Source of the DNA: Flavobacterium sp.
GTDB taxonomy: Bacteria; Bacteroidota; Bacteroidia; Flavobacteriales; Flavobacteriaceae
Length of the DNA stretch: 11,722 bases
Assembly (NCBI GenBank): GCA_030682755.1
Contig: JAUXNR010000070.1
Location: 1-11,722, forward strand
Reading direction: 5' to 3'
This document shows, one piece after another, positions 1-10,048 of this stretch. The position numbers were made by a program, and so were the translations under genes. Position 1 is the first letter of the stretch. Each line of letters starts with the position of its first letter. The notes under the pieces were generated by a model, which saw only the letters and a list, made by a program, of their open reading frames with translations, did not search any database and was not told the origin of the DNA.

Positions 1-3000
1 CAAAACCCAAATGGGAAGCCAAGCAACTTCTTTTTTTAACAATCAATCCTTAGATACCACTTCCATTGTATATTCTGTTTTTCTTACCGGAAATGCAGCA
101 AATACCCTAAACGATGGAGCCAGTCCGATGCTTTCTAGTTTTAAAAAAAGATTGGAAGCCGCTTCAACAAAAAGTAGCCTTCTTTATTTAGGAGACCACA
201 TTTTTCCGCTACACGGTTATGATGAAAATCGTAGGTTAGCCGAAGAAAAAATGACCAAACAACTCGATTTATCTGAAAAATTTAAGGGGAATGTGTACTT
301 CCTTCCGGGTGAAAAAGATTGGGGAAATGGTGTTGCAAATTTAACCGCTCAAGAAAATTTTATAGCCACTTATAAGAAAAAAACCAGTCAACTTATTCCA
401 AAAAATGCATGTGGTATTGCTTTTATATCACTAAGCAATGACGTTGAATTAGTGGCCATCAACTCCCAATGGTTTATGGAAGATTGGGACAAACACACCG
501 AAATCAACAGTGGTTGCTCCATCAAAACCAGAGAGCAATTTTTTGAAGAATTGGATGGTCATTTACAAGAAAATCCACAAAAAACAATCCTTTTAGCGAT
601 GCACCATCCTTTGATGAGCAATGGCGTTTATGGAGGTCAATATTCGTTACAGCAACAAATTTTCCCTTTAGAAAAAAACATTCCGTTGCCCATTGTCGGT
701 AGTTTTGTGAATCTTTTTAGGAAAGCCAGTGGTACCCATCCGCAAGATTTGCAAAATGTCAATTATAAAGAAATGACGCAACGCATCAAATCCATTGTGC
801 AGAAATACCAAAACGTTGTGGTTGTTTCCGGTCATGAACAAAATTTGCAGTACATCAAAAAAGACGGTATTCAACAAATCATAAGTGGTTCCGGAGCTCA
901 TTTTACACCCGCCAGAGCCGTAAACCCAAAAGATTTCAGTTTTGGTGGTTATGGGTATGCTGTTTTGGATGTGTTTGCGAACGGAGCTTCAACAATTTCT
1001 TTTTATACCACTTCCAACCGAAAAGAAGTGTTGCTTTTTAAGCAAAAACTCAGTGAACCCGAATCGGATGAACAACATCGCAATTATCCGAAACAATTTG
1101 AGAGTGAGATCAAGCGATCTGTTTTTGGAAAATCGGTCAGCAGAAAAAGTGATGTCTATGAATTTCTTTGGGGAAAGCATTATAAAAAATATTACAAACA
1201 AAACATTTCTTTTCAAGTAGCTACACTTGACACCTTGTTTGGCGGCTTAAAACCACTTGGATTGGACACAGAACATGCCACTAATTCTCTTTTGCTTGTT
1301 GATAAAAACGGAAAAGAATTTGTGATGACGCCACTGGAAAAAGATGCCAATTCCTTTTTTAAATCCATCGCTTATAAAAATGACAACTCTAAGAATCAAG
1401 CAACAAATGCGTTGTCAGAAGATTTTTTAAGAGATTATTTCACCACCATTCATCCGTTTACACCTTTGGTTATTCCAACTTTATCAAAAGCCATTCAAGT
1501 AAGTGCGACGCAACCCGGTTTGTATTATATTCCGAATCAAAATCAGCTTGGAAAATACAATACTGATTTTGGAGGAGCATTGTATTATGTTTCCGCTAAA
1601 ACAAATGCCACCCAAAAAAGCAATCCGAACTTTGGGAAACCCTCTTCAATTATTGATACAGACGAGATGTTGCATTTGATTCGAACCAATAAAAATCACA
1701 AACTGGACAAAGAAAATTATATCAGAGCACGCCTTTTAGACATGCTTATTGGCGATTGGGACAGGCAAGCAAAAAACTGGCGTTGGGGTGTCTTTCAAGA
1801 AAACAACAACGTGGTGTATCGCCCAATTCCAATCAATCGCGATCAGGCTTTTGCTAAATATGACGGAGCTTTTCTGAAATTACTAAAAACTGTTCCGGCT
1901 ATGGGTCAGATGCATTCCTATTCGTATAATCATCCCAATCAAAAAAAATTTAACGAACAAGCCTATGCATTAGATTTGGCTTTGCTTTCGTCTGTAGATG
2001 AGAAATTATGGGTGGAACAAGCCAAATTTATACAAGAAAACCTGACCAATGACATCATCAATAAAGCCTTTTTGAAATTGCCGTATGAATTGCAAGATGA
2101 AACCACTACCAAATTAAAGCTCAACTTACGAAACCGAATAAAAAAATTACCGCAAACCGCTCAACAGTATCAGAAGATTTTAGATAAAAAAGTGTTGGTT
2201 GTGGGAACATTGGAAAATGATGTTTTTGTCATCAACCGATTATCGGGCGGAAGAACGACTGTTGTGGTGTATAACGGCAAAAAAACACCTGCCAATATTA
2301 TTTTTGAACGTACATTTTATAAAAATCAAACCAAAGAAATTTGGCTTTTTGGTTTAGAAGGCAAAGATGAATTTAGCATGGAAGGAAACGAATCTAAAGC
2401 CATAAAAATAAGAATGATGGGTGGATTGAGTCAAGATTCGTATGTAGTTGAAGACGGTAAGAAAGTGAAAATTCACGATTTTATGTCCAATAGCTCAACC
2501 CTTGTTGTTGATGGAAAAACAACTATTCTTCTTTCAAACAATTACGAAACCAATACGTACAACTACAAACGTCCAAAATTCAACACCTTTTCGGTAGTTC
2601 CTTTACTTGGTTTTAATCCGGATGATGGCATTAGAACCGGACTGGGATTTGACTTTACCCAAAAAGGATTTTTAGGTAACCTCTATTCACAAAAACACCG
2701 CTTGCAAACCAATTACTATTTTGCAACACAAGGTTATGATTTAGCCTATAGCGGATTGGTTAAAAAAGCTTTTGGCGAATATGATTTTGTGATAGATGCT
2801 TCGGCAACAAGTTCTAATTTTGTTTTGAATTTCTTTGGTTTTGGCAATGAAACCTTCAACGATAAGGACCTTGATTTTGATTATAATCGGGTTCGAATTG
2901 CGTCTTATAAAGTCAGTCCGGGTTTGGTTTGGATAAAAAGCAAAGCAAGCACTATTACCGCAAGAGCTCATTTTGAGGCCTATCAAGTGGAAAACACGCC

Positions 3001-3619
3001 CGATCGATTTATTTCAGAAAGTGGCATTGCGGCAAACATTTTTGACTTGCAACCTTTTGCCGGACTTGGGTTGGGCTATCAGTTTAAAAATTACGACAAC
3101 GCTTTTGTGCCCACTTTGGGAATGGGCTTTCAAGCCAATGGAAAATGGACTGTGAATGTGACTGATTTTTCAAGAAATGTTCCAAGTGTTGACGCCGCAT
3201 TAAACTTGGTTTACAAACTAACTCCCGATTCAGAATGGCTATTTGAAACCACTTTAAAAGGAAAAACCATTTTTAGCAATGCTTTTGAATTTTATCAAGC
3301 GGCTTCTTTGGGTGGCGATGAAGATTTACGCGGATTTAGAGACAATCGTTTTTCAGGGAAATCAGCCTTTTTTCAAAGTTCTGATTTACGGTATTTTATT
3401 GGTCAAATTAAAAACCCGTTTGTTCCTATTAATTATGGAGCTTTTATCGGTTTTGATTACGGAAGAGTTTGGTTTCCCGGTGAAAATTCAGATAAGTGGC
3501 ACCAGTCGAGCGGCTTTGGGCTGTGGATGAACAGTAGTAATGTTGTGGCGGCGAAATTATCTTATTTTCATGCTACGGATGGTGGTCGGATTGCATTTGG
3601 GATGAAGTTTAATTTTTAA
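1..3619 (+). CDS. Metallophosphoesterase-like / BamA-type beta-barrel outer-membrane protein, 5'-partial
   Basis: The frame is open from base 2, with no stop before the first ATG at 11, and no signal peptide is visible. The true start therefore probably lies left of the window; residues here count from the ATG at 11 (1202 aa). Residues about 18-330 resemble a calcineurin-like phosphoesterase: GD at 61-62, a GNHD-like GEKD at 100-103, HH at 198-199 and GHEQ at 274-277. Residues about 480-620 carry the motif GDWDRQAKNWRW (581-592) and RDQAF (610-614), which recall HipA/FAM20-like kinase folds. Residues about 855-1202 form a surface-antigen (BamA/Omp85-like) barrel with LRGFR at 1106-1110 and a terminal Phe, as outer-membrane proteins have. 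The likely location is the outer membrane with the enzyme-like part in the periplasm. Several metal ligands are substituted, so phosphatase activity is doubtful. The substrate is unknown. The architecture call is firm; the function is not. Confidence 0.85.
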   Translation, partial: KTQMGSQATSFFNNQSLDTTSIVYSVFLTGNAANTLNDGASPMLSSFKKRLEAASTKSSLLYLGDHIFPLHGYDENRRLAEEKMTKQLDLSEKFKGNVYFLPGEKDWGNGVANLTAQENFIATYKKKTSQLIPKNACGIAFISLSNDVELVAINSQWFMEDWDKHTEINSGCSIKTREQFFEELDGHLQENPQKTILLAMHHPLMSNGVYGGQYSLQQQIFPLEKNIPLPIVGSFVNLFRKASGTHPQDLQNVNYKEMTQRIKSIVQKYQNVVVVSGHEQNLQYIKKDGIQQIISGSGAHFTPARAVNPKDFSFGGYGYAVLDVFANGASTISFYTTSNRKEVLLFKQKLSEPESDEQHRNYPKQFESEIKRSVFGKSVSRKSDVYEFLWGKHYKKYYKQNISFQVATLDTLFGGLKPLGLDTEHATNSLLLVDKNGKEFVMTPLEKDANSFFKSIAYKNDNSKNQATNALSEDFLRDYFTTIHPFTPLVIPTLSKAIQVSATQPGLYYIPNQNQLGKYNTDFGGALYYVSAKTNATQKSNPNFGKPSSIIDTDEMLHLIRTNKNHKLDKENYIRARLLDMLIGDWDRQAKNWRWGVFQENNNVVYRPIPINRDQAFAKYDGAFLKLLKTVPAMGQMHSYSYNHPNQKKFNEQAYALDLALLSSVDEKLWVEQAKFIQENLTNDIINKAFLKLPYELQDETTTKLKLNLRNRIKKLPQTAQQYQKILDKKVLVVGTLENDVFVINRLSGGRTTVVVYNGKKTPANIIFERTFYKNQTKEIWLFGLEGKDEFSMEGNESKAIKIRMMGGLSQDSYVVEDGKKVKIHDFMSNSSTLVVDGKTTILLSNNYETNTYNYKRPKFNTFSVVPLLGFNPDDGIRTGLGFDFTQKGFLGNLYSQKHRLQTNYYFATQGYDLAYSGLVKKAFGEYDFVIDASATSSNFVLNFFGFGNETFNDKDLDFDYNRVRIASYKVSPGLVWIKSKASTITARAHFEAYQVENTPDRFISESGIAANIFDLQPFAGLGLGYQFKNYDNAFVPTLGMGFQANGKWTVNVTDFSRNVPSVDAALNLVYKLTPDSEWLFETTLKGKTIFSNAFEFYQAASLGGDEDLRGFRDNRFSGKSAFFQSSDLRYFIGQIKNPFVPINYGAFIGFDYGRVWFPGENSDKWHQSSGFGLWMNSSNVVAAKLSYFHATDGGRIAFGMKFNF

Positions 3620-5826: not shown

Positions 5827-6327
5827 CTAAAATAATTCACTGCGATATTCCCAAACCTTCACTAAAAATATTCCTAAAAAAATCACTGAAACCAAAAATT
5901 TCATAAACGTTGACGCTAAGAAACCCATAAAAGAACCCGTTGCTGCTTTAAATGCTTTTCTAGAATCTTTAGAATCATTTAGCAACTCTCCAACAAAAGC
6001 ACCCACAAATGGTCCGATGATAAAGCCAAAAGGAATTGGAGCCAAAATACCAATCACTAAACCGATATTTGTTCCCCATATTCCGTACTTGCTTCCACCA
6101 AAACGTTTGGTCCCTTTGGCAGGAATAACGTAATCTAAAACTGCCACAACCACCGCTACCAACAAAGTAATCCCTAAAACGGTGTAACTGAATGGTACAG
6201 CATTGGTTAAATACAAAAGCAGTAACCCTACCCAAGATATTGGAGGTCCGGGCAAAATAGGAAGAAGACTGCCCAAAACACCAACCAACATGCATAAAAA
6301 ACCGAGAAAAAGAAGTAGGTAATCCAT
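5827..6327 (-). CDS. DUF456 family membrane protein
   Basis: This 166-aa, very hydrophobic inner-membrane protein belongs to the DUF456 family. An LLPILPGPP segment lies near the N-terminus, a GSKYGIWGTNIG segment in the middle, and then glycine-rich helices (GPFVGAFVGELL) and GSFMGFL. About four to five membrane-spanning stretches can be drawn, with a short charged loop containing NDSKDSRKAF. The function of the family is not known. The ATG at 6327 is preferred over the in-frame TTG at 6331-6333, because that TTG is the end of a -7-like TACATTTG on the minus strand. The transcript may then start almost at the ATG, giving no or a very short leader. The gene is divergent from the BlaI operon, and the BlaI-type operators lie 38 or more bases upstream of its start, so shared regulation is possible. 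Confidence 0.88.
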   Translation of the reverse strand: MDYLLLFLGFLCMLVGVLGSLLPILPGPPISWVGLLLLYLTNAVPFSYTVLGITLLVAVVVAVLDYVIPAKGTKRFGGSKYGIWGTNIGLVIGILAPIPFGFIIGPFVGAFVGELLNDSKDSRKAFKAATGSFMGFLASTFMKFLVSVIFLGIFLVKVWEYRSELF

Positions 6328-6330
6328 AGT

Positions 6331-6338
6331 CAAATGTA
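6331..6338 (-). promoter_or_regulatory. Candidate -7 element for the DUF456 gene
   Basis: Read on the minus strand this is TACATTTG, a full match to the Bacteroidota -7 consensus TAnnTTTG, ending three bases before the ATG at 6327. No TTG stands at the usual distance upstream, so only half of the promoter is supported. Confidence 0.45.
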
Positions 6339-6364: not shown

Positions 6365-6380
6365 AACTAACTTTTTAGTT
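6365..6380. promoter_or_regulatory. BlaI-type operator dyad 1
   Basis: AACTAA-CTTT-TTAGTT is a perfect inverted repeat with six-base arms and a four-base spacer. It lies upstream of, and touches, the -33 TTG of the operon promoter. It has the same arms and spacing as two further copies downstream. Binding by the adjacent BlaI-like repressor is inferred from position and symmetry. Confidence 0.75.
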
Positions 6381-6408
6381 GTAACTAAGAATTTAGTTTG
6401 TATATTTG
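6379..6408 (+). promoter_or_regulatory. Flavobacterium-type promoter of the BlaI-M56-TPR operon
   Basis: A -33 TTG (6379-6381) and a -7 TATATTTG (6401-6408) are separated by 19 bases, matching the published Bacteroidota pattern of TTG, about 17-23 bases, TAnnTTTG. Transcription would start around 6412-6415, giving a leader of roughly 25 bases. The elements are interleaved with the three operator dyads: the -33 straddles dyads 1 and 2, and the start site falls just before dyad 3. Confidence 0.75.
6383..6398. promoter_or_regulatory. BlaI-type operator dyad 2
   Basis: AACTAA-GAAT-TTAGTT has perfect six-base arms and a four-base spacer. It occupies the spacer between the -33 and -7 elements, and its centre is 18 bases from that of dyad 1. 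A dimer bound here would block RNA polymerase. Confidence 0.78.
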
Positions 6409-6416
6409 ATTAATTA

Positions 6417-6432
6417 AACTAAAAAATTAGTT
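6417..6432. promoter_or_regulatory. BlaI-type operator dyad 3
   Basis: AACTAA-AAAA-TTAGTT has perfect six-base arms and a four-base spacer. It lies in the transcribed leader, between the -7 element and the ATG at 6438, and its centre is 34 bases from that of dyad 2. It covers the region where a ribosome would load. Confidence 0.75.
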
Positions 6433-6437
6433 GAAAA

Positions 6438-6806
6438 ATGAAACCATTAACAAAAGCGGAAGAAGAAATAATGCAAGTGCTTTGGCAACTTGAGAAAACA
6501 TCTGTAAAAGATATAATTGAACATTTACCGGAACCGAAACCTGCTTACAACACAGTTTCAACAATAGTGAGAATACTAGAAACCAAAGGATTTGTAGGCC
6601 ACGAATCTGAAGGAAAAGGGTATTTATATTTTCCTATTATTAAAAAACAAGAATACAGTCATCAATCCATAAATAAATTTGTTGATGGTTATTTTCAGGG
6701 TTCTTTTAAAAGCATGGTTTCTTTTTTTATGAAAAAAAACGATTTAAGTTTAAAAGAATTGGAAGAGATTTTAAATGAAATAAATGCTAAAAAAGAGAAA
6801 CCATGA
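6438..6806 (+). CDS. BlaI/MecI family transcriptional repressor
   Basis: This 122-aa protein matches the usual size of BlaI/MecI repressors. Residues 1-70 form the winged helix: LTKAEEEIMQVLW at 4-16, the recognition-helix region PAYNTVSTIVRILETKG at 35-51, and the wing GKGYLYFPI at 59-67. The C-terminal part (about 75-115) has the expected FVDGYFQGSF and LSLKELEEIL helices of the dimerisation domain. In the family, dimers bind inverted repeats and are inactivated when the partner M56 protease signals and the repressor is cut in the C-terminal domain. Three identical-arm dyads lie directly upstream, so autorepression is likely. The stop overlaps the next start as ATGA, coupling repressor and protease. 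No beta-lactamase or penicillin-binding protein gene is near, so a role in beta-lactam resistance is not supported. Confidence 0.93.
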   Translation: MKPLTKAEEEIMQVLWQLEKTSVKDIIEHLPEPKPAYNTVSTIVRILETKGFVGHESEGKGYLYFPIIKKQEYSHQSINKFVDGYFQGSFKSMVSFFMKKNDLSLKELEEILNEINAKKEKP

Positions 6807-8398
6807 TAGAAATCATTATAAAAATTGTCATTTGTCAGTTTGCTTTTTTACTGATTTATGAAACAGTATTGAAAAGAGAAACTTTTTTTCAATGGAATAG
6901 GGTGTATTTATTGATTACAGCAGTTTTGTCCTTTGTAATTCCATTTTTAAAAATAAGTTGGTTTAATAAACAAATTTCAGAAAACATTTCTACTTCTTTA
7001 AATGAAATAGTGCTGAATGCCTCAACTAATAAAATTACAAATACGGTTCACAATAGTAACACAATAACTCCAAATTTTGAATTTAAACTCGAATTCTTAG
7101 TACTTGTTGGAAGTTTGGTGTTCTTGTTTCTGTTTATTAGAAAATTCTATCTACTTCATAAAATCAAACAAAAATGCAAGAAAACAATTCATCGTGATTA
7201 TATTGAATATCAAATTCCAAATTCAGACGTCGCTTTTTCATTTTTGAACAATTTATTTATTGGAGAAAAAATAAATTCTAATTCCTATGTAGCGATTGTA
7301 AGCCATGAAATTATACATATTAAACAAAAACATTCTTATGATTTATTATTTTTTGAAACCTTGCGAATTATCTTTTGGTTTAATCCCCTGATATATTTAT
7401 ATCAAAAATACTGTGCTGAAGTACATGAATTTATTGCCGACCAATGTGTTGATAAACATCAAAATAATTATGAAATCTTATTACAGGAAATTTTTGGAAC
7501 AGAAAATTTTTCCTTTACCAATCAATTTTTCTCCTATTCATTAATTAAAAAAAGAATAATTATGTTAAACCGCAAATCAAAAAAATCAGCAAAATTTAAA
7601 TTTTTAGCTGTCATTCCGTGTATATTTCTCTTACTTTTTATGGTTTCATCTTCAGAAATTCAAGCCCAAGAACAAAATCATTTGACAGACCAAGAATTAA
7701 TAGAAAAAATATATAAAGAATTAAAATTAAATTCTGCAAATGGTCAGTCAATATATGAACAAATTAAAAAAAATATGGTTATTGACAAAATCGAAGAAGA
7801 CAAAATTCTATCTCGAGAAGAATATTATAGATTAGTATTGATCCTAAAATTAATGATGGAAGAGGCCGAAGAAAAAGGAATTGCTGAAAATAAATCGTCT
7901 TATTTTGATGTCAATAAAAGAACCTATGAAGAATATTTAACCAGAAAAAAACAAGAATTAGAAGACAAGCAAAAATCAGCTTCAATCAAAACTATAAAAT
8001 ACGAATTACCTCAGGAAATTATTCACCAAGAAATCATACCCCTTCACGCTGCAGATCAAGCTCCATTGTTTGAAAACTGCATAAAAGATAAAACACATGA
8101 TTGCTTTCAAAATGAATTAAATAATCATATTAGAAAAAACTTTTATTATCCCGAGGAGGCAATGGATAAAGGAATTTCAGGCAGAGTTTTTGTTAATTTT
8201 GTAATAACTGATAAAGGAAATATTGTAATAAAAGGAATTAGAGCTCCTGCCCCAATATTAGAAAAAAGTGTATATGAATTAATGATGAAATTACCGGTTT
8301 TGAAACCTGCAATTCATAACGGAAAAGCTGTAAGCATTAATATGTCCATGCCAATTTCGTTTGTTCTAGATACTTTTTATGATGAAGATAAAAAATAA
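6803..8398 (+). CDS. M56 (BlaR1/MecR1-like) membrane metallopeptidase with TonB C-terminal domain
   Basis: This 531-aa inner-membrane protein has hydrophobic helices at about 3-21, 33-51, 97-114 and 267-284. The zinc peptidase site lies between helices 3 and 4: HEIIH at 168-172 and the further ligand region EFIAD at 209-213. By homology with BlaR1 this part faces the cytoplasm, where it would act on the BlaI-type repressor encoded just upstream (ATGA overlap). The part after helix 4 should be periplasmic. It begins with a charged helical linker (about 290-400) and ends in a TonB-C-like domain (about 418-521) containing CIKDKTHDCF, FYYPEEA and GISGRVFVNFVI. There is no penicillin-binding sensor domain. 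In this fusion, common in Bacteroidota, the TonB-like part presumably senses or transmits an envelope signal; its ligand is unknown. The next gene starts 20 bases inside the 3' end. Confidence 0.92.
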   Translation: MIEIIIKIVICQFAFLLIYETVLKRETFFQWNRVYLLITAVLSFVIPFLKISWFNKQISENISTSLNEIVLNASTNKITNTVHNSNTITPNFEFKLEFLVLVGSLVFLFLFIRKFYLLHKIKQKCKKTIHRDYIEYQIPNSDVAFSFLNNLFIGEKINSNSYVAIVSHEIIHIKQKHSYDLLFFETLRIIFWFNPLIYLYQKYCAEVHEFIADQCVDKHQNNYEILLQEIFGTENFSFTNQFFSYSLIKKRIIMLNRKSKKSAKFKFLAVIPCIFLLLFMVSSSEIQAQEQNHLTDQELIEKIYKELKLNSANGQSIYEQIKKNMVIDKIEEDKILSREEYYRLVLILKLMMEEAEEKGIAENKSSYFDVNKRTYEEYLTRKKQELEDKQKSASIKTIKYELPQEIIHQEIIPLHAADQAPLFENCIKDKTHDCFQNELNNHIRKNFYYPEEAMDKGISGRVFVNFVITDKGNIVIKGIRAPAPILEKSVYELMMKLPVLKPAIHNGKAVSINMSMPISFVLDTFYDEDKK

Positions 8399-9521
8399 TA
8401 TAATCTTAACAATTTTAATACTCTCATTTAAATTAAATGCTCAACATTTAAAAGTTGGCGACAGTTTATTTGCGATGGGTTTTTATAACAAAGCCATTGA
8501 AAATTATTCTCTTTCTAAAGAACACATCAGAGAATACAAAATTGCCATAGTACATGAGTCTAATGGAGATTATGTCAATGCTCAAAAAAATTTAGAAAAA
8601 TATATTGCTAGCGATAGTTTAAATCCATTAGTCAACTTTATGTATGGGAAGACTTTGCTTCAACTCAAAAAAACAAAACCAGCCATTTATACATTTGAAA
8701 AACTATCAAAAACCATTGAAAACCCAACTTACTATTATTATTTAGGCTTGGCTTTTGAACAGGATATTAATAGTATAATGGCTCAAAAATCTTTCAAGAG
8801 AGCAATTGATTTGGATGACTTTCATTTAAAAAGCAATTACAAAGTAGCTTTGTTTGAAATGCGTGCTGAAAGATGGGACAAAGCATCTGTAATTATTGAT
8901 AAAATAATCAAACTACAACCAGAAAACATCGATTTTCTCTCCTTAAAAGCACAATGTCTTTATGGTAAATCAGATTTTAAGAATGCAAAAAAGACCTTTG
9001 AGTATTTAATCGAATTAAACTTTAAAGAACAATTTGTGTATGAAAAGATAGCTCTTTGTTTGATGAAACTGAGGGAATATCAAAAATCAATTGAGACCTA
9101 TGAATCTTTGATGATTCAATTTGAACAAGTGGACAATCCTGATATCCATTACAATATAGGATTAAATTATGGTTATTTAAAAAACTTAAAATTAGCCGAG
9201 AAACATTTTATGATTTCAAAAGAATTAAAGACCGCAACGTTTGAAAATGAATATTTTTCTATTGCCCTTTTTAATCAAGAAAACGGAAATCAGAACAAAG
9301 CATTGACCTTTTATAAAAAAACAATACTAGAACAACCGGAATATTTAGAAGCTCATTATCAAATTGCAATAATTACCGACGAAACTTCAAAAGATTTAGC
9401 AGTAAAACTCAAAACATTCGAAAATTTAAAAGCTAAATTTCCAGATATGGATAAGAAAAAAAATGATTACATAGATCACAGAATCAAAGAACTCAAAAAA
9501 GAAATTCATTTCAAAGGTTAA
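8379..9521 (+). CDS. Exported tetratricopeptide-repeat protein
   Basis: This 380-aa protein has an N-terminal signal peptide with a probable cut after LNA (residue 21, LNA/Q), a form common in flavobacteria, so the mature protein should be periplasmic or surface-exposed. The rest is nearly all helical hairpins of TPR type, about nine to ten units. Clear ones include residues about 27-60, 62-95, 165-200 (ERWDKASVIIDKIIKLQPEN) and 295-335 (QNKALTFYKKTILEQPEYLE). TPRs mediate protein-protein contacts; there is no catalytic domain. The reading frame overlaps the end of the M56 gene by 20 bases, so it belongs to the BlaI-M56 operon and is probably controlled by the same operators. Its role there is unknown; being an effector of, or partner for, the periplasmic M56 tail is speculation. 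The second ATG at 8382 is an equally good start. Base composition is low in GC, like the two genes before it. Confidence 0.85.
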   Translation: MMKIKNNIILTILILSFKLNAQHLKVGDSLFAMGFYNKAIENYSLSKEHIREYKIAIVHESNGDYVNAQKNLEKYIASDSLNPLVNFMYGKTLLQLKKTKPAIYTFEKLSKTIENPTYYYYLGLAFEQDINSIMAQKSFKRAIDLDDFHLKSNYKVALFEMRAERWDKASVIIDKIIKLQPENIDFLSLKAQCLYGKSDFKNAKKTFEYLIELNFKEQFVYEKIALCLMKLREYQKSIETYESLMIQFEQVDNPDIHYNIGLNYGYLKNLKLAEKHFMISKELKTATFENEYFSIALFNQENGNQNKALTFYKKTILEQPEYLEAHYQIAIITDETSKDLAVKLKTFENLKAKFPDMDKKKNDYIDHRIKELKKEIHFKG

Positions 9522-9571: not shown

Positions 9572-10048
9572 TTGAAACACTTTTGTTATTTAGTATTATT
9601 TTCTCTCTTGGCTTCCTGCCAATACTTTGAAAAGCGTGTGCCTTCCGAAGAAGAATTGCTTCAGGAACGCTTGAAACAAATTGATTGGAAAGAAGTTACA
9701 GATTATCCCTCTGTTAATGCTTGTGACAGTTTGATGGATAAAGAGCAAAAAAAGGCGTGTTTCTTTCAATTTTTGACTGAACTAATTCAACAGAAAATTT
9801 CAACTGATTCAACAGAAAGAAATGCTGAAATCTTTGACACCTTAAATGTTTTGGTCACTGTTTTTCCGGATGCCAGTATCACTTTTGAACCGCAATTCCC
9901 GTCTGACAGCACCCACTACAATAAAGCTAAAGTGGACAGTATTCTTAAAAACAGACTCACAGATTTCCCTAAAATTGAACCCGCTCAGAAAGAAGGAATT
10001 CCGGTGAAAACACAATTTATTTTGCCTGTTGTTTTAAAAGCAGATTAA
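9572..10048 (+). CDS. Small lipoprotein with TonB-C-like module, TTG start
   Basis: No family was recognised with certainty. The 158-aa product begins at TTG; an in-frame stop lies at 9560-9562 and no ATG stands between it and the signal peptide, so TTG is the only start that keeps the lipobox (LLASC, Cys16). The protein should be lipid-anchored. The mature part has a C...CF pattern (residues about 51-65, ending in KKACFFQFL) and ends in GIPVKTQFILPVVL. Both resemble parts of TonB C-terminal domains and of the M56 protein tail encoded upstream (CIKDKTHDCF there). A diverged TonB-C fold is inferred, not shown. The gap from the TPR gene is 50 bases. A poor promoter-like pair (TTG at 9544, TTTG at 9566) leaves it open whether the gene has its own promoter. 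Its 3' end overlaps the convergent glycosyltransferase gene by four bases. Confidence 0.75.
   Translation: MKHFCYLVLFSLLASCQYFEKRVPSEEELLQERLKQIDWKEVTDYPSVNACDSLMDKEQKKACFFQFLTELIQQKISTDSTERNAEIFDTLNVLVTVFPDASITFEPQFPSDSTHYNKAKVDSILKNRLTDFPKIEPAQKEGIPVKTQFILPVVLKAD

Follow-up and report, generated by a model that had tools for sequence, protein, structure and literature searches.

Three inverted repeats at the promoter of a blaI operon

The window, a contig of 11,722 nucleotides from a Flavobacterium genome that was analysed at its full length (contig C361 of assembly G000, which comprises 3.69 Mb in 950 contigs with completeness 95.97 and contamination 6.06), contains three perfect copies of the inverted repeat AACTAA-N4-TTAGTT, most likely the operators of the BlaI-family repressor that is encoded just downstream. 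Sequence comparison makes it very probable that these predicted operators are bound by BlaI dimers, and that an operon encoding BlaI, an M56 metallopeptidase, a TPR-repeat protein and a putative lipoprotein represses itself and is released via the M56 protein.

The first dyad (D1, 6365-6380, AACTAACTTTTTAGTT, arms separated by CTTT) overlaps the TTG of the blaI promoter at -33, the second (D2, 6383-6398, AACTAAGAATTTAGTT, separated by GAAT) lies inside the spacer between the -33 and -7 elements and ends 2 bases before the -7 box, and the third (D3, 6417-6432, AACTAAAAAATTAGTT, separated by AAAA) falls in the probable blaI leader, after the likely transcription start and before the ATG at 6438. 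Each is an exact match to the pattern, and the centre-to-centre distances are 18 bases for D1-D2 and 34 bases for D2-D3; an earlier, sequence-only reading of the window had given these coordinates, sequences and spacings without error. The promoter (6379-6408, plus strand), as read from the sequence, consists of TTG at 6379-6381, the -33 element, followed by an N19 spacer and TATATTTG at 6401-6408. The sigmaA -7 consensus of F. psychrophilum is given as TAnnTTTG (PMC9723704).

The genome-wide search that the same reading had proposed found exactly three perfect copies of AACTAA-N4-TTAGTT in the 3.69-Mb assembly, all within the 68-base array of the window, and 22 further sites with one mismatch. 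Since the base composition of the window predicts approximately 1.7 perfect sites per 3.69 Mb, three inside 68 bases are not due to chance; 200 dinucleotide shuffles of the window yielded no perfect dyad. The significance resides in the tandem array of perfect copies, and lone near-matches are free of signal: dyads with up to two mismatches number 426 genome-wide versus 1004 for the pattern read backwards, and the window contains 15 dyads with up to three mismatches versus 17.8 expected. A wider regulon of single near-match sites was rejected, near-matches being no commoner than the backward control and the 12 near-match contexts inspected being a mix of intergenic and in-gene positions.

Genes of the presumed operon and the proposed mode of regulation

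The blaI gene (6438-6806, plus strand) starts 5 bases downstream of the array and encodes a Penicillinase_R protein of 122 amino acids (PF03965, 114.2 bits, cut-off 22.6). Residues 4-118 align full-length to residues 8-123 of MecI (E 6.6e-16, in a comparison with proteins of known structure), an alignment that identifies it as a relative of MecI. The next gene (6803-8398, plus strand) encodes a membrane metallopeptidase of 531 amino acids, the presumed partner of BlaI, with an M56 domain (PF05569, 39.3 bits, cut-off 31), a C-terminal TonB_C domain (PF03544, 46.5 bits, cut-off 24.6), the HEXXH motif as HEIIH at residue 168, and four hydrophobic segments. It is followed by a presumed operon member encoding a TPR-repeat protein (8379-9521, plus strand, 380 amino acids, matching several TPR families), relatives of which are found downstream in most orthologous loci of sufficient length, and by the last gene of the presumed operon, for a putative lipoprotein (9572-10048, plus strand, 158 amino acids, no Pfam family), relatives of which likewise follow blaI-M56 in most long orthologous loci. 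The BlaI, M56/TonB_C, TPR and divergent DUF456 genes are all as the sequence-only reading had described them.

What is seen directly is the dyads, how they are arranged and conserved, their association with blaI operons, and the families to which the genes belong; from this we infer BlaI binding, repression, the extent of the operon and its M56-driven release in the following form. With one BlaI dimer covering the -33 box at D1 and another next to the -7 box at D2, within the spacer, RNA polymerase would be excluded from the promoter, and a dimer on D3, just past the likely start, would be an additional roadblock, so that the blaI-M56-TPR-lipoprotein operon would repress itself through BlaI. 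By analogy with B. licheniformis and S. aureus, self-repression would persist until an envelope signal reached the M56 membrane protease, which would then inactivate BlaI, probably by cutting it, and so allow the operon to be expressed. BlaR1 of S. aureus is reported to cleave BlaI between Asn101 and Phe102 (PMC9834060). In the alignment to MecI this bond is absent from the window BlaI, where the corresponding pair is Phe96-Phe97; hence cleavage by the M56 protein at the aligned bond is not assured, and the cleavage point may differ.

Beta-lactam is an unlikely signal for this system, because a Pfam search of the M56 protein found no penicillin sensor, only M56 and TonB_C scoring above cut-off. 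The blaR1_generic profile matches the M56 protein with 19.1 bits, below its cut-off of 400, and there is no gene for a beta-lactamase or a low-affinity penicillin-binding protein among the adjacent genes (DUF456, M56, TPR and the Pfam-less protein). The array points to the BlaR1 design being used without a recognisable penicillin sensor.

Conservation of the array

Conservation was assessed in 89 orthologous loci, comprising 80 named loci, 8 loci of the genus, and the window; the named relatives belong to the Flavobacteriaceae and are the closest 80 of 535 confirmed, near relatives whose sampling favours conservation. The sequence-only reading had proposed a check of whether the dyads are kept upstream of orthologous BlaI-M56 pairs; the D1-D2 pair, counted with up to one mismatch tolerated per dyad, is present in 87 of the 89 loci, missing only from L023 and L070. 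With displaced arrays counted, 84 loci have the two centres 18 bp apart and 3 have them 17 bp apart. A third dyad is found 23-35 bp after D2 in 51 loci and is missing in 38, and a TAnnTT[TA]G box stands at an offset of 5-8 from the start of the right arm of D2 in 82 of 85 loci.

Perfect dyads in the 89 loci are concentrated at blaI: 198 of 202 are within 600 bp upstream of it (53,147 bp), and the remaining 4, in 928,933 bp elsewhere, all belong to the displaced arrays of L091 and L106, in which the array is separated from blaI by genes of the same direction, encoding an alpha/beta hydrolase plus two small proteins in L091 and a thioredoxin-like protein in L106. Among the matches listed for the genus, 29 of the 31 upstream regions examined have at least two dyads with up to two mismatches each, the exceptions being L023, with one dyad, and L047, with none upstream. 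The clade of the window BlaI (66-83% identity) is represented in at least 8 other genomes of the genus sample and is widespread in other Flavobacteriaceae; relatives of the protein in general occur in 245 of 299 genus genomes and 144 of 296 phylum genomes.

The divergent DUF456 gene

On the other side of the array lies a divergent gene for a DUF456 membrane protein (5827-6327, minus strand; PF04306, 142.9 bits; the open reading frame extends to 6333, and the ATG at 6327 is taken as the start). It had been suggested that one repressor could control both sides, the array being a two-way operator from which BlaI also represses DUF456. DUF456 is divergent, with its start less than 600 bp from blaI, in 69 of the 89 loci, the DUF456 ATG of the window is 38 bases away from the start of D1, and a conserved element on the DUF456 side lies 5-9 bp from D1 in many relatives. 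The third dyad is also commoner where DUF456 is adjacent (46/69 versus 5/20, p 0.0016, uncorrected for kinship), perhaps as a lineage effect. Nevertheless, shared control is unlikely: the D1-D2 pair is kept in 67 of 69 loci with an adjacent DUF456 gene and in 18 of 20 without one (Fisher p 0.22), the positions of D1 and D2 fit the blaI promoter exactly, and the DUF456 side of relatives has its own separate element. The suggestion of control on both sides therefore found no backing in the retention of the pair, and DUF456 is not supported as the reason for the array. Two of the four loci scored as lacking the pair in this comparison, L091 and L106, have it displaced beside DUF456.

The separate element, GTAACA-N15-CGTC, is found on the DUF456 strand in the DUF456-blaI intergenic region of relatives (for example L083, L094, L123 and L146). 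Of its 30 copies, 27 lie no more than 120 bp from the first dyad, and the other 3, before DUF456, are a little more distant; there are none elsewhere on either strand of 957,381 bp from 87 loci, and when spacers of 12-19 were tried beside D1, only 15 was found to occur. In F. psychrophilum, a probable ECF-sigma motif is described as being marked by a CGT box that is conserved in the -10 region (PMC9723704). GTAACA-N15-CGTC has the look of a DUF456 promoter of the ECF-sigma type; it is absent from the window, where a TAnnTTTG-like box is found instead at 6331-6338 on the minus strand.

Half-sites, recognition helices and spacing in Bacteroidota

Comparison was extended to 259 non-identical loci of the phylum (two duplicates having been dropped from 261). 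Alignment with MecI places residues 38, 41 and 42 (window numbering) in the recognition helix, where they probably contact DNA. The site classes were drawn up after the sequences had been viewed, and the following counts are descriptive, not a test: N-S-T at 38/41/42 is associated with AACTA in 167 of 185 loci (no site was found in 15), N-S-S with AACT[GT] in 5 of 5, T-A-S with TACGA in 14 of 16, T-A-T or S-A-T with CTACA in 19 of 29 (no site was found in 10, several of them apparently inside operons), and N-A-T (n=17) with TACTA in 10 and AACTA in 5. The half-site thus appears to track the recognition helix across Bacteroidota, an association that phylogeny alone could produce, since the operator class needs to change only 7 times on a tree of 195 proteins. 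The tree has poor resolution, 36 of its 189 inner branches being starred. A causal helix code was set aside in favour of an association, the independent pairs being too few for a test.

The spacing of tandem dyads also differs among groups. It is 20 bp in 85 of 85 intervals of a paralogue clade, 14 of 19 intervals of N-A-T repressors, 7 of 7 of those with S-S at 41-42 and 17 of 23 of the CTACA class, and 19 bp in 7 of 7 intervals of the TACGA group; AYNT-type repressors outside the 89 loci have spacings of 18 bp (9 intervals) and 20 bp (6 intervals). At position -3 of the half-site, A is found in 90% of AYNT/PYNT half-sites (110 loci, mostly of the window clade), and the HYNT paralogue clade has A in 43% and T in 48%; positions -8 to -5 were fixed by the search pattern.

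Both arrangements are present in the genome of the window. Its only other Penicillinase_R gene, on contig C237, is preceded by AACTTAAATTTTAGTT, AACTATTTTTATAGTT and AACTAAAAATATAGTT with a centre spacing of 20 bp, and then by a TAGGTTTG box. Perfect AACTA-N6-TAGTT sites number 9 in the genome, five at the two blaI genes and four as singles elsewhere, versus 25 for the backward control. A tentative explanation is that co-resident BlaI paralogues of Bacteroidota are kept apart by array geometry plus half-site, and that helix residues 38/41/42 predict the half-site. The window clade would read pairs with a spacing of 18 bp and A at -3, the co-resident paralogue would read the same AACTA core with a spacing of 20 bp and either A or T at -3, and the residues at 38, 41 and 42 would specify AACTA, TACTA, AACT[GT], CTACA or TACGA. 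If true, this would be a natural orthogonal set of repressors and operators with spacing as part of the address. Half-sites and spacings that are specific to a clade would be useful for building repressor-promoter pairs in hosts for which genetic tools are scarce.

Specificity of arrays for blaI operons

A looser two-dyad pattern has 28 matches in nine genomes, all directly upstream of blaI (backward control, 2), and identifies no further array target in the genome of the window (spacing gap 0-24). The proposal that the half-site would define the regulon of the repressor was therefore half right: two-dyad arrays mark the two blaI genes of this genome and nothing else, and single near-matches do not delineate a wider regulon. 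In the family, the perfect 18-bp double dyad is present in 136 of 299 genomes (backward control, 0 among the matches listed). When 44 of the approximately 142 double dyads fetched by pattern were examined, 38 were found to lead into a blaI operon, 37 directly and one via an alpha/beta hydrolase gene followed by blaI-M56-lipoprotein. The other 6 are each a second array in a genome that has one at blaI too, so at least 6 of the 136 genomes have an extra array away from blaI (with 44 of the approximately 142 arrays examined), and the repressor, judged by its predicted sites, has as a rule a single array target, with a second one in occasional genomes.

Three of the second arrays, in three genera, precede genes for homologous proteins of 406-410 amino acids (L329:2058-3278, L337:1564-2793 and L346:237-1469) that have no Pfam family, are 52% and 55% identical to the L329 copy, and are secreted by the look of the N-terminus; this gene is a candidate target away from blaI. 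The other second arrays (L330:2069-3976, L339:1-1469 and L344) precede unrelated genes, encoding Pfam-less proteins of 635 and 489 amino acids, with no obvious target in L344. The array gives the BlaI-M56 pairs of Bacteroidota a readable operator, from which extra targets can be found by sequence alone.

Conservation in 89 loci, the array at the second blaI gene and the reverse search starting from the array strongly support the original proposal of a dimer-binding operator array for the BlaI of the downstream operon. Binding of the dyads by some other dimeric regulator, to which the 6 of 44 arrays not preceding blaI might point, is very improbable, because each of the six genomes concerned has a further array at blaI, and because, across the phylum, a different half-site goes with a different recognition helix in the neighbouring BlaI. 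Least credible of all is a function of the inverted repeats in RNA as leader hairpins. The position of D3 in the likely leader would allow it, from its sequence, to form a 6-bp stem, but it is absent from 38 of 89 loci, and hairpins were rejected for D1 and D2 by their position upstream of the -7 box, where they would not be transcribed from the blaI promoter, yet are more conserved.

Relation to known BlaI, MecI and CopY systems

As BlaI operators, the three dyads have their closest precedent in the bla divergon of B. licheniformis, described as having BlaI on the operators OP1-OP3 between blaP and blaI-blaR1 (PMC3305447). The two systems have in common three operators at the promoter of a repressor-sensor operon, a repressor gene followed by an M56-type gene, and a divergent neighbour. 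They differ in that the OP1 probe contains TTACATATGTAA whereas the half-site of the window is AACTAA, the divergent gene of the window encodes DUF456 and not a beta-lactamase, and the M56 protein of the window has TonB_C and no penicillin sensor that could be found.

BlaI_0696 and BlaI_1845 of C. thermocellum have the reported half-sites GTCTAT and GACTAT (PMC8457756), which share with the window array a CTA core, paired inverted repeats and a departure from TACA/TGTA, but differ from it in the bases outside CTA; the window also has a TAnnTTTG promoter, three dyads and a pair fixed at 18 bp, unlike C. thermocellum as described there. The C. thermocellum regulons are characterised as very small and centred on the operon of the repressor itself (PMC8457756).

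The staphylococcal MecI/BlaI-MecR1/BlaR1 systems share the repressor family and the repressor-protease design (PMC9834060), but are described as having TACA/TGTA operators, a beta-lactam sensor domain and the Asn101-Phe102 bond in place of the Phe-Phe pair of the window BlaI. TACA/TGTA operators are attributed to BlaI, MecI and CopY (PMC7253601). The AACTAA half-site differs from them, as the sequence-only reading had maintained, and appears to keep the register of TACA/TGTA-family sites. The copper repressors CopR-CopY, with the operator RNYKACANNYGTMRNY (PMC7253601), resemble the window system in belonging to a related repressor family and in having a 16-base operator and two operators at the promoter. 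Unlike CopY, the window BlaI has no C-terminal Cys-X-Cys metal site, since there is no cysteine among its 122 residues, and its match to the CopY_TcrY profile (58.6 bits) is below the cut-off of 121.95.

Given the known half-sites, paired repeats and self-centred regulons of C. thermocellum, the array is best seen as a variation on the BlaI operator design already known, and not as a new kind, with an unusual and very regular layout. No description of the operator of any Bacteroidota BlaI was found in open-access full text (subscription papers being mostly outside that scope), and the paper on F. psychrophilum promoters (PMC9723704) does not mention BlaI in its main text.

Other genes

The alpha/beta hydrolases encoded between array and blaI at L091:3630-5123 and L347:4452-5960 are 51% identical to each other. 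At positions 2-3619 the window encodes a protein of 1205 amino acids, truncated by the start of the contig, with a weak C-terminal match to a ShlB-type outer-membrane barrel (26.5 bits, cut-off 22.7).
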